Of a DNA stretch of 64,000 nt, positions 53,887-57,105 are shown in pieces; position 1 is the stretch's first letter; each line of letters starts with the position of its first letter. The notes below the pieces were generated by a model. It was not told the DNA's origin and made no database searches. It saw only the letters and a list, made by a program, of their open reading frames with translations. Made by a program: the position numbers and the translations under genes. Source of the stretch: an uncultured Actinomycetes bacterium (GTDB lineage: Bacteria; Actinomycetota; Acidimicrobiia; Acidimicrobiales; RAAP-2); assembly GCA_903875425.1 (NCBI GenBank), contig CAIQWC010000024.1:1-64000 (forward strand). Reading direction: 5' to 3'.

Positions 53887-53988
53887 GGTGTACTCCTCAG
53901 CATTGGTGTCCCTTAAGGCTAGCCATGCGGACTGCATATCTGGCTGACCATGGGAACCACGGGAGGTTCCCCACTAGCCTTAAGGACT

Positions 53989-54507
53989 ATGGCACAGGCA
54001 AAAAAGACGAAGGCGATGCGTGAGGCCAAGCGCGACCAGCCGCCCGGTGACCGCACCGTCGCCACTAATCGTCGTGCCCGCCACGACTACGACATTCTCG
54101 AATCACTGGAATGTGGCATTGTCCTTCAAGGCAGCGAAGTCAAGTCGCTACGCGAAGGTAAAGCCCAAATCACTGACTCCTATGCACGGATCGACTCAGG
54201 GGAACTCTGGCTTTTTGGACTGCACATCCCACCCTGGAAGTTCGCCACGGGCTTTGGGAGCCACGATCCAGATCGCAAACGAAAACTACTGGTTCACCGG
54301 AAGCAAATAACCGATTTCATAAAACTGACCCAAACGCAGCCCCTCACCTTGGTCCCCTTGAAGATCTACTTTCACGAGGGTCGCGCAAAAATCGACCTTG
54401 GCGTGGCTCGAGGTCGAAAGCTCCACGATAAGCGCGCGGCCATCAAGGAGCGCGAGAGTAAGCGTGAAACGGATCGCTACATCAAGGAAGTTCGGCGCTC
54501 AAGTTAG
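53989..54507 (+). CDS. smpB: tmRNA-binding protein SmpB
   Basis: A 172-residue SmpB with a basic N-terminus of about 20 residues. The motifs TNRRARHDYDILESLECGI, LQGSEVKSLREGKAQI, and YFHEGRAKIDLGVARGRKLHDKR (split here) are diagnostic, with a basic C-terminal helix (RETDRYIKEVRRSS). SmpB carries tmRNA to stalled ribosomes. It is followed 71 bases later by the ssrA gene that it serves. Confidence 0.97.
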   Translation: MAQAKKTKAMREAKRDQPPGDRTVATNRRARHDYDILESLECGIVLQGSEVKSLREGKAQITDSYARIDSGELWLFGLHIPPWKFATGFGSHDPDRKRKLLVHRKQITDFIKLTQTQPLTLVPLKIYFHEGRAKIDLGVARGRKLHDKRAAIKERESKRETDRYIKEVRRSS

Positions 54508-54578: not shown

Positions 54579-54926
54579 GGGGGTGATTGGTTTCGACATT
54601 GGCTATCAAGGTAGGTGAAGCGAGCCGTGGTCTCAGGATCCACGTTAAAGAGCCTGAAACAAAAATAAACGCCGAGCCTCAGCTCGCACTCGCTGCCTAG
54701 AGCAGCGACGTTCAGCCGGTCCCAGTCCCACGGATCGGAATCTGGACGCCATCTTGTGGGACTTACTTCTAGTTAGCGCGCTGCCTGACTAAAAGGACAC
54801 TTCAGTAGCGATAGTTGCAAGAAAAGTCGCCAATCGGCTTCTCGCAGCGAAATCTTCCGATTGGCTGCGCTCGGAGAAGAACTATTGAGATACTGATGGT
54901 CGCGGGTTCGATTCCCGCCACCTCCA
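54579..54926 (+). ncRNA. ssrA: tmRNA (ssrA)
   Basis: A 348-base transfer-messenger RNA directly after smpB. The 5' end GGGGGTGATTGG pairs with the 3' end CACCTCC, and the T-arm GCGGGTTCGATTCCCGC is present. The resume codon follows AAAAATAAAC; the tag reads AEPQLALAA and ends in TAG within the hairpin CGCTGC-CTAGA-GCAGCG. Nine residues is short for a tag, but the LALAA end is the normal protease signal. CCA is not encoded. Confidence 0.95.
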
Positions 54927-55430
54927 AGAGCGCTCAGGGTTCGCCGTGAGCGTTGTTGGAGGTGATGACCGTTCATCGTCGCAATAGAGGTTGAGAATTT
55001 TATGTGCCCACTCGATCGCGTCGGCAACCCTGATGCCAGTCGGCTGCGGCCTCGTCCACAGTTCGAGGTTCTCTGGGCGATTGTCGTCTTTGACCCCATT
55101 TCGATGGTGGACAGATTCGCCCCTGGCTAGCAATCTCCCGAGCATTTGCTCAGCGACCAAAATGTGTTCAAAGACGTAGCCACCTTGATCACCTCGAGGG
55201 TGGTCGATTGCCTTCACCATGACATAACCAGCCTTGTGGCGAGTTCTGCCACCCTTCCAATTCCCGTTCGCCGGACCGGAAAAGTCCCGGCACACCAAGC
55301 ATGAGCGAGAACTCCGTTGTTTGGGTCTTCCGCATTCACAGGAGTTGCGTGAACGGCAAGCAGGGCAGCGTAAGTGCCTCGATGAAGGTTCAAAATCTCT
55401 GTCACACTCAGTGCAAGTTCTTGTCGCCAC
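54882..55430 (-). CDS. HNH endonuclease, mobile type, running into ssrA
   Basis: About 182 residues. An N-terminal zinc-ribbon-like part has paired Cys (CTECDRDFEP, RCPACRSRNSCECG, SCLVCRD), followed by a homing-type HNH core with NGNWKGGRTRHKAGYV, FEHILVAEQMLGRLLARGE, VHHRNGVKDDNRPENLELW. The stop lies inside the tmRNA sequence on the other strand; the last ~15 residues (ending RESNPRPSVSQ) are simply the antisense of the tmRNA 3' end. This suggests insertion at ssrA. GTG 55430 is the proposed start; the frame is open further upstream. Confidence 0.75.
   Translation of the reverse strand: MATRTCTECDRDFEPSSRHLRCPACRSRNSCECGRPKQRSSRSCLVCRDFSGPANGNWKGGRTRHKAGYVMVKAIDHPRGDQGGYVFEHILVAEQMLGRLLARGESVHHRNGVKDDNRPENLELWTRPQPTGIRVADAIEWAHKILNLYCDDERSSPPTTLTANPERSWRWRESNPRPSVSQ
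54929..54954 (+). terminator. Hairpin after tmRNA
   Basis: CGCTCA (54931-54936) pairs with TGAGCG (54947-54952) around a GGTTCGCC inner stem-loop, starting 3 bases after the tmRNA end. Only a weak T-rich stretch follows (GTTGTTGG), so strength is uncertain. Confidence 0.4.
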
Positions 55431-55701: not shown

Positions 55702-57105
55702 GTGGACTTTCGTACCTATCGAGTGAGCGAACTCGCCGCACAGGTGCGATCGAGCGAAATTTCGGCCACTGAGTTAACCCGCTACAGCCTTGAGCGAATC
55801 GAAGCACTCAACCCCACGGTTAATGCCTTCGTTGCCATTGACGCCGAGCAAGCGCTGGCTCAAGCGGCAATCATTGACCAACTCGTCGTCGATGGAATCG
55901 ACCCCGGCCCCTTGGCGGGAATTCCCATCGGCGTCAAAGACCTTGAGGATGCGGCGGGCTTTCGCACTACGCAAGGTACGACCATATTCGCCGACATCCC
56001 TAAAGCAACGAAGGACTCGTCCTTCGTTGCCCGACTTCGCCGAGCCGGCTGTGTGGTGGTGGGTAAAACCAATACTCCAGAATTTGGCTGGACCTCTCGA
56101 ACGCAGAACGCACTCTTTGGACTCACAAAAAATCCTTGGAATCTTGAACACTCCCCCGGCGGATCATCCGGTGGCTCGGCTGCGGCAATCGCTGCGGGCA
56201 TGATTCCAATGGCGACTGGCTCAGACGGTGGTGGTTCGCTGCGGATTCCCTCTGCGGCCTGTGGTCTCTCGGGATTTAAGGCCTCTCTTGGGCGCATCCC
56301 TAATGGTGAAGACACCCCGCCGGGTTGGTTGGATCTCGCTACGAAGGGACCTATGGCTCGGTCAATAAGCGATATCGCCCTAGCCCTCGATGCCGTAGCT
56401 GGGCCCAACCCTAAGGATCTCTCATCGCTCCCTCGAGTCGATAGCTCTTGGGCCGATGCCGTTAGGGATCCCCAACTACCGGCTCGCGTTTTGTGGTCAC
56501 CCAATCTCGGATACGCAAGGGTCGATAATGAGGTGCTCCGCGCCTGCGAGCGAGCGCTCGACCTGCTCGAAGCAGAAGGGACGCAGATCATAGAAATTAC
56601 TGGTCCCTTCCCTGCGGATCCCCTTGACGCTTGGTTGGTAATCGTAGGGGTCTGCATCAAACGATCGCTTGGATATCTCGGTAACCATTCTCGTTTCGGC
56701 GAGCTCGACACCACCTTGCAGCAATGGATTTCCGACGGCGCCACGGCCTCAGGATCAGATCTGGCAAACGCGCTTGACCAAGCACATCTGCTCAACCTTC
56801 GCCTGGTCGAACATTTTAAGCTTGCGCCAATTCTGCTCTGTCCCACGACAGCCGGAGTTGCGCCTCGCAACGATCTTGGAGGACGGGGCCTCATCAACGG
56901 GGTTGAATTTGTCGACTGGGTCCAGTTGACCTACCCCTTTAATATGACTCGCTCCCCCGCTGCCAGCGTTAGCGTTGGCTGTTCTAAGACCGGAGTTCCC
57001 CTAGGCCTCCAAGTGATCGGGCCCCAACATGGCGACTCGATCGTCCTTCAAGCCGCAGCGGCTCTTGAGGCGCTGATTGGCTTCTCTGACAAAGCCCAGA
57101 TCTAA
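55702..57105 (+). CDS. Amidase-signature enzyme
   Basis: A 467-residue amidase. The catalytic triad is seen: Lys in GVKDLEDAAGFRT, the cis-Ser in SPGGSSGGSAAAIAAG, and the nucleophile Ser in the GSDGGGSLRIPSAACG loop. The family includes GatA, but GatA usually needs GatB and GatC beside it, and none is here. The substrate may be an aliphatic or aryl amide. GTG start, so the N-terminus reads M-D-F-R-T-Y-R. Confidence 0.9.
   Translation: MDFRTYRVSELAAQVRSSEISATELTRYSLERIEALNPTVNAFVAIDAEQALAQAAIIDQLVVDGIDPGPLAGIPIGVKDLEDAAGFRTTQGTTIFADIPKATKDSSFVARLRRAGCVVVGKTNTPEFGWTSRTQNALFGLTKNPWNLEHSPGGSSGGSAAAIAAGMIPMATGSDGGGSLRIPSAACGLSGFKASLGRIPNGEDTPPGWLDLATKGPMARSISDIALALDAVAGPNPKDLSSLPRVDSSWADAVRDPQLPARVLWSPNLGYARVDNEVLRACERALDLLEAEGTQIIEITGPFPADPLDAWLVIVGVCIKRSLGYLGNHSRFGELDTTLQQWISDGATASGSDLANALDQAHLLNLRLVEHFKLAPILLCPTTAGVAPRNDLGGRGLINGVEFVDWVQLTYPFNMTRSPAASVSVGCSKTGVPLGLQVIGPQHGDSIVLQAAAALEALIGFSDKAQI

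Follow-up and report, generated by a model that had tools for sequence, protein, structure and literature searches.

The window, by which we mean the whole 64,000-nucleotide stretch of DNA analyzed here, carries an ssrA (tmRNA) gene whose 3' end is overlapped by an oppositely oriented gene for an HNH_3 homing-endonuclease-like protein (Table 1). The Rfam match (RF00023, 54579-54927) and the ARAGORN tmRNA (54579-54926) agree to within one nucleotide. The minus-strand HNH reading frame begins at a GTG at 55430 and looks intact, and its stop codon (54882-54884) falls within the tmRNA, as the original prediction, made from the letters alone, had claimed. The same prediction had read the terminal residues RESNPRPSVSQ as antisense tmRNA, and correctly so: the last 14 codons (54885-54926) are antisense to the tmRNA, with the RESNPRPSVSQ tail lying opposite the T-arm. 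This overlap is a quirk of the window copy, as in three related loci (L035, L036 and G037) the gene stops at a TGA in the stem of the adjoining hairpin, 7 nt short of the tmRNA, and the window frame runs on past that position. The source genome holds one copy of the HNH gene.

Table 1. Features at and around the ssrA 3' end of the window (all positions are those of the window).
Feature	Position	Strand	Basis
smpB, upstream host neighbor, outside the proposed unit	53950..54507	+	ORF; tblastn matches in relatives; name by eye
ssrA (tmRNA), tag AEPQLALAA	54579..54926	+	ARAGORN; Rfam RF00023, 140.3 bits
HNH_3 homing-endonuclease-like gene, GTG start, 182 aa, stop within ssrA	54882..55430	-	ORF; Pfam HNH_3; phrog_20891
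GGTC immediately 5' of the T-stem, beside the putative insertion/cut border	54898..54901	+	border deduced from the phage pair
T-arm, acceptor 3' strand CACCTCC and discriminator A	54902..54926	+	sequence
Capped-acceptor hairpin, CACCTCCAA-GAGCGCTCA-loop-TGAGCGTTG-TTGGAGGTG	54919..54964	+	fold z -6.18; model R1; covariation
Hairpin 3' arm TTGGAGGTG, complementing the ssrA acceptor 3' end	54956..54964	+	sequence
Conserved HNH core with two cysteine-rich zinc ribbons (by eye)	54969..55424	-	alignments
Amidase-like host gene, downstream, outside the proposed unit	55702..57105	+	ORF; name by eye

A zinc ribbon joined to an HNH_3-like core had been proposed for the protein, and this assignment stands. 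The window protein matches Pfam HNH_3 at 3.9e-11, above the cut-off, and phrog_20891 at 3e-40; HNH_3 is matched in all nine family members, and the zinc-ribbon cysteines and HNH-motif residues are invariant in 9/9 aligned sequences, the window included. More distant likenesses, to I-HmuI through the HNH fold and to I-TevI through the zinc finger, are weak. The I-TevI structure 1i3j gives a profile match at E 0.013, and the related protein of phage MulchMansion scores 21.9 bits against Pfam I-TevI_ZnF, below the cut-off of 27. With the predicted structure (pLDDT 74.4), Foldseek returned no match at E<=0.001 and VIA-align ranked I-HmuI first (Z 4.8, rmsd 3.5 over 75 residues; next match 2.8), a low fold match for this predicted model, yet one consistent with an HNH nuclease. 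Both I-HmuI and I-TevI differ from the ssrA-linked protein in being intron-encoded. The anti-phage nuclease ZorE was considered and rejected, with matches of only 17-19 residues at the HNH motif (E 0.0008-0.004) and an NCBIfam score of 12.8 of 600 bits.

Profile searches with the conserved core placed close relatives of the gene at 13 bacterial loci, made up of the class and phylum matches together with G037 and L036 (the latter from the named collection), L035 being taken as the same contig as G572. At 12 of the 13 the gene is antisense, facing and abutting the ssrA 3' end, and at the thirteenth (G706) the contig ends within the HNH gene. Ten of 395 genomes pass 1e-12 in the class scan, and the four above 250 bits, our own included, all abut ssrA; 22 of 396 pass 1e-20 in the phylum scan, where eight (again including our own) reach at least 166 bits, seven of them abutting ssrA and the eighth being G706. 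In the nine abutting loci over 175 bits, the conserved core ends 32-52 nt from the tmRNA. The full gene of G037, which belongs to another family, also lies antisense at the ssrA 3' end.

Viruses carry the gene as well. Among the matches listed, four viral relatives exceed 175 bits: L090 and MulchMansion have the gene antisense at their own tmRNA, in L091 it lies in sense and 79 nt ahead of a tRNA-Lys, and in L092 a tRNA-Asn is 383 nt away. This first viral scan covered the best 80 of 341 relatives; a second viral scan and a hairpin pattern scan each returned only the already known L090, and a DNA search of phages with the window unit gave no match. Among plasmids, six records matched, all below 60% identity and none covering 80%.

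The position of the HNH gene at ssrA is far from chance. HNH genes are common in phage tRNA arrays, where several of the viral relatives lie, and they are described in mycobacterial tRNA arrays (PMC5966550 and PMC6582537), the first of these sources calling them widespread, so that nearness to ssrA could in principle be a chance or sampling effect. We regard this as extremely improbable given the fixed orientation and spacing of the loci described above. Moreover, ARAGORN scans of 11 bacterial HNH loci other than the window showed no tRNA next to ssrA, the nearest tRNA in the window is 3.7 kb away, and sister HNHs at tRNA-Glu form a separate clade at another gene.

The original prediction had suggested comparing the ssrA 3' flank across relatives, with a gene fixed in all of them beside the same neighbors speaking against a mobile origin. 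Presence proved to be patchy, with the full gene in just 1/60 other relatives (G037), a C-terminal HNH piece retained in G025, and a match to the hairpin and tmRNA only in G028. The neighbors differ too: the amidase-like gene downstream of the window copy has homologues in 35/60 other relatives at 1e-100, and in the three that hold both on one contig (G003, G030 and G038) it lies 63, 63 and 77 kb from ssrA. In the family comparison for G037, that genome was the only member.

SmpB could be located in 11 of the 13 hosts of the HNH gene (partial in G584), giving 55 host pairs, and HNH is the more similar protein in 49 of them; the window and the ten other hosts share 54-70% identity in HNH and 41-61% in SmpB. 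SmpB is more alike in the remaining six pairs, including the close pair G543/G470 (HNH 85%, SmpB 96%), in which the HNH gene of G470 may be decaying. The HNH protein therefore appears to change faster at short range and slower at long range, as expected if it moved between hosts, a contrast that leans on the single pair G543/G470. The two sets of identities are positively correlated (rank rho 0.38) and host families partly group in the HNH tree, which suggests that descent and transfer are both at work. The tree holds 60 rows of 63 named loci, with hits under 75 residues left out, gaps removed and stops set to X. A single origin of all ssrA HNHs was rejected, the tree needing two changes, with 30 of its 57 inner branches open and a bootstrap that had not settled. 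These comparisons indicate horizontal spread of the HNH gene among distant hosts, with viral copies.

Could the gene instead belong to the host, passing down by vertical descent, acting in the regulation or processing of tmRNA and being lost often? Families f80, f97 and f54 do hold related HNHs, the antisense overlap could act on tmRNA, and some relatives have the hairpin but not the full gene: among the 12 genomes of f54, two have the HNH gene, three the hairpin without a full HNH, six neither, and one has no downstream sequence. The six pairs in which SmpB is the more conserved protein also fit such descent. Set against the single full gene in 60 other relatives, the 49 pairs that run the other way, the differing neighbors and the copies in viruses at viral tmRNA genes, we judge this reading very unlikely.

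Two of the loci, L035 and L036, have CGAACGTAyGTTCG palindromes 14 nt before the HNH start, with a partial version in G037, and we take these to resemble the actinobacterial LexA box. Control of the gene by an SOS box was considered and set aside as a general feature since the palindromes are confined to few loci, the exact GAAC-N4-GTTC motif occurring only in L035 and L036, partially in G037, and in none of the 13 upstream regions that make up the rest of the 16 compared.

Phages offer a direct comparison of a filled site with an empty one. The 2-kb stretch around the MulchMansion tmRNA was matched by 103 phage records, and only MulchMansion itself covers at least 80% of it. Phage LilMartin, which is without the HNH gene, has flanks 99.6 and 99.7% identical to those of MulchMansion on the two sides; Angela resembles LilMartin at the tmRNA region, as judged from the match listing alone. 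MulchMansion and LilMartin agree up to ..GAAGCATCAGGAC, whereupon MulchMansion has 559 bp extra. This insert enters after ..CATCAGGAC and brings GGGGGTTCGAATCCCCCCATCTCCA; it comprises a fresh T-arm with acceptor strand, a hairpin resembling a terminator and, in antisense, the HNH gene, which is the only gene that it holds, with no integrase. The tmRNA end of LilMartin, GCGGGTTCGACTCCCGCCATCTCCAC, persists downstream of the MulchMansion insert, where the displaced 3' end matches the copy at 20/22 positions (0/500 shuffles as good). These junctions place the insertion at the 5' edge of the T-stem, with the gene's 3' end exchanged for a new one much as an integrase-borne element would do, but without an integrase.

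To the recurrent location, patchy presence and viral copies of the gene, the phages thus add one exact empty site and one clear displaced end. The precise empty site was seen in this one filled/empty pair, and none was found for the site of the window itself; the MulchMansion HNH forms an outlying branch of the tree, and its site is without an acceptor-matching arm. A far-side direct repeat of the gene's 3' end is clear in MulchMansion, possible in G037, and was not found in the other 12 of 14 filled loci, the window included. Beyond the window HNH, the best candidate for a decayed ssrA copy has 10 mismatches of 22 (360/500 shuffles as good). The possible displaced end in G037 begins at the T-stem and has a different acceptor sequence; it matches at 16/22 (3/500 shuffles as good), a score that stray matches with 6 mismatches also reach in 6 kb of other sequence (window, G117), and is distinguished only by its position and T-arm shape. 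The window copy presumably arose in the same way as the phage copy. Next to the putative border the window reads GGTC, where GGAC precedes the T-stem at the remaining 60 of the 61 loci tallied across relatives (some genomes being counted more than once) and some other families have AGAC or nCAC; that this change might protect the filled site is no more than a guess.

MulchMansion has a further 177 bp just past the displaced end that is not in LilMartin. Its gene 183 (L170, 3734-3913) lies in this segment, which was possibly co-converted with the HNH unit or may be a separate insertion. At about 3920-3976 of L170, GTGGAGAT just inside the displaced T-arm complements its ATCTCCAC and could give a tRNA-like minihelix. 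The paper on MulchMansion, in the part available, lists one tmRNA gene and names the HNH gene in a satellite-helper comparison, and this part of the text contains no mention that we found of an insertion at the tmRNA (PMC10690885).

The 3' ends of ssrA genes are common sites for genomic islands, and the HNH gene might accordingly be leftover cargo of an integrase-borne island that used this end as its attachment site. The displaced 3' end is att-like in look, and ordinary integrase islands do occupy the same ssrA end in G001 and G025. In G001 (L052, 57-1385), the one relative of the same genus covered by the search, ssrA is directly followed by a phage integrase gene and there is no HNH. In G025 (L050, 2456-9669), about 6.7 kb with a phage integrase separates ssrA from a 22-nt ssrA copy, which is joined to the C-terminal HNH scrap. 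Here the island apparently inserted into an ssrA that was already filled and, given its place between ssrA and the HNH scrap, most simply came later. In 9 of the 11 HNH-bearing genomes, no Phage_integrase or Resolvase match (the two families searched) was found on the HNH contig, these contigs being 10-90 kb long, and in G584 and G671 the nearest match is more than 80 kb from the HNH; the contig of L036's genome was not matched in this search. Together with a 559-bp phage insert that holds the HNH only, in a pair that comes close to having the HNH unit as its sole inserted DNA, these observations make the island reading unlikely. Of the two origins offered in the original prediction, self-insertion of a homing-type nuclease at ssrA is thus well supported, by the antisense location at ssrA in scattered hosts and two viruses and by the phage pair, and the remnant of an integrated element is not.

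Most of the bacterial copies have a further component. Past the discriminator A, the window reads AGAGCGCTCA-loop-TGAGCGTTGTTGGAGGTG, and the final nine bases complement the acceptor end CACCTCCAA, so that this strand folds as a T-arm plus a capped acceptor (z -6.18). Among the 12 abutting bacterial HNH loci, the window included, 11 carry such a hairpin with a far arm complementing the acceptor stem. The model R1 scores the window hairpin at 88.7 bits (the window being among its 8 training sequences) and matches 11/12 of these loci at 57 bits or more, seven of them in training, with G584 at 44.9. Across the class, R1 matches 15/395 genomes at 52 bits or more (four in training), the next falling below 46; 11 of these 15 are without a full HNH, C-terminal scraps being present in G220, G293 and, by eye, G120.

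The arm follows the acceptor. Acceptor and arm pair as CACCTCC/GGAGGTG, CAGGTCC/GGACCTG, CAGCTCC/GGAGCTG, CATCTCC/GGAGATG and, in a virus, CGACTCC/GGAGTCG, and the arm thus covaries with the acceptor across five acceptor types, the pairing in L035 including one U-G. In the 27 hairpin matches, 97.9% of cells pair and 71 cells are changed on both sides compared with 14.2 in shuffles; 13 of the 22 pairs change on both sides (11 of 17 within the hairpin). The underlying alignment, A6 (27 rows, two of them from G025), was fitted to R1 and shares 8 sequences with the training set of that model, toward which it leans. Alignment A3 (8 rows), made without such fitting, agrees: 98.9% of cells are paired, and double-change cells number 17, compared with 4.8 in shuffles. 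A full 7/7 arm within 100 nt occurs at 0/43 distinct tmRNA ends without the element and at 6/8 with it, identical ends having been merged and some flanks being shorter than 100 nt. The arm is typical rather than universal, as MulchMansion is without it and that of G584 is changed.

We think it most likely that the hairpin serves as an RNA-level 3' boundary for the rebuilt tmRNA. A less likely alternative, in our view, is that the arm was never selected as a device and is a side effect of a terminator palindrome that extends into the acceptor and whose symmetry is maintained by DNA template switching: the inner stem by itself looks terminator-like, quasi-palindromes are known to self-correct, and MulchMansion manages without the arm. 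Across the nine arm pairs of the 27 hairpins, however, eight cells are changed on both sides, six are of the G-U type and three are unpaired, departures such as RNA pairing would give, and the excess of G-U type over unpaired cells favors a role at the RNA level. The arm comparison of tmRNA ends with and without the element also argues against a by-product, as does the arm tracking the acceptor (CATCTCC with GGAGATG) in G153 and G293, relatives without a full HNH. A separate locus, L183 (G091, about 1501-1573), has a tmRNA 3' end with a capped hairpin where ARAGORN found no tmRNA, an orphan end.

The reading we prefer, and hold to be quite probable, is that the window contains a compact, integrase-less HNH homing unit that lives at tmRNA genes, carries a replacement 3' end and, as we infer, spreads by cutting. 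Its parts would be the replacement tmRNA 3' end (T-arm and acceptor 3' strand), the antisense HNH gene and, in most bacterial copies, the capping hairpin. In this model, the nuclease most likely cuts unit-less ssrA at the 5' edge of the T-stem (between GGAC and GCGGG in the phage), and repair with a filled ssrA as template, whether that of the same cell or one on a phage, would install the unit and so drive its spread. A complete tmRNA would be restored by the incoming T-arm and acceptor strand, and the former 3' end would come to lie downstream of the HNH gene and decay there.

The proposed unit can be set beside several known systems. It resembles the free-standing mob/seg nucleases of phage T4, of HNH and GIY-YIG types, in being a small, stand-alone intergenic nuclease gene of patchy occurrence that is expected to spread by cutting the empty allele. 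T4 segB is listed between tRNA genes (PMC2988022), SegB is described together with tRNA-Tyr amplification (PMC13096335), and phage nuclease genes are found to mark the borders of genetic exchange (PMC10448857). Free-standing phage nucleases cut hundreds to thousands of bp from their own gene (PMC2988022), whereas the ssrA unit inserts at the presumed cut; it further differs from mob/seg in occurring also in bacterial chromosomes, in bringing a replacement RNA 3' end and in its usually acceptor-matched hairpin.

LAGLIDADG-bearing group I introns of the tmRNA T-loop are likewise selfish elements that home to the tmRNA T-arm, and 883 intron forms have been counted, all in the T-loop, 36 of them with a homing endonuclease gene (PMC11915505). 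The ssrA unit differs from these in that there is no splicing, the nuclease is HNH rather than LAGLIDADG, insertion falls at the 5' edge of the T-stem, and a new RNA end takes the place of the old. A group I intron in the window was itself rejected, no Rfam intron family reaching its gathering score there and the T-arm being uninterrupted. Integrase-borne ssrA islands resemble the unit in supplying a duplicate of the 3' end of the gene and displacing the original, but the unit has no recombinase nearby, and its driver would be the HNH nuclease together with repair. The capped hairpin also recalls permuted tmRNA precursors, a form named in PMC11915505, in that the acceptor 3' strand is loop-joined to a complementary downstream strand; the comparison of folds is our own. 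Unlike in permuted tmRNA, the ordinary 5' acceptor strand is there as well, which would leave two strands in competition.

The 3' ends of tmRNA and tRNA genes are classic landing sites for integrases, as is the tmRNA T-loop for group I introns. The HNH unit would represent a third route to the tmRNA end, in which a bare HNH gene brings its own RNA end and keeps the RNA whole; this route is seen in phages and, in chromosomes, is indicated by position. We found no description of HNH units at ssrA in the literature searched (open-licence PMC papers), within which the acceptor-matched hairpin is also an undescribed structured element beside ssrA. Its presence raises the question of how maturation proceeds in a pre-tmRNA that has two competing acceptor strands, and the MulchMansion/LilMartin pair renders the HNH route directly testable. 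More tentatively, these units may exemplify a class of integrative elements without an integrase, in which the driving force is a homing nuclease that brings along a recoded 'rescue' version of the very RNA end under its attack; such an element would be a cut-and-rescue drive of natural origin. The capped-acceptor hairpin would then be a dedicated RNA device, a circularly permuted T-arm/acceptor minihelix that co-evolves with the host acceptor stem and sets or controls tmRNA 3' maturation, and a sister family would act alike at tRNA-Glu.

The sister HNHs (L211-L223 and L225 in the phylum; L085, L087 and L088 in the class) lie antisense at the tRNA-Glu 3' end. They account for 14/16 of the weaker phylum matches and 3/6 of the weaker class matches, and their clade has a support of 100/98 over 15 rows. 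Neither a capped hairpin nor a displaced tRNA end was seen at these loci, and a search for direct repeats beside the gene, allowing up to 5 mismatches of 22, found none across the 17 loci. On two large viral contigs, L098 and L100, related HNH genes lie in sense 82 and 70 nt after viral tmRNA genes, and the two group together in the tree at 97/92.
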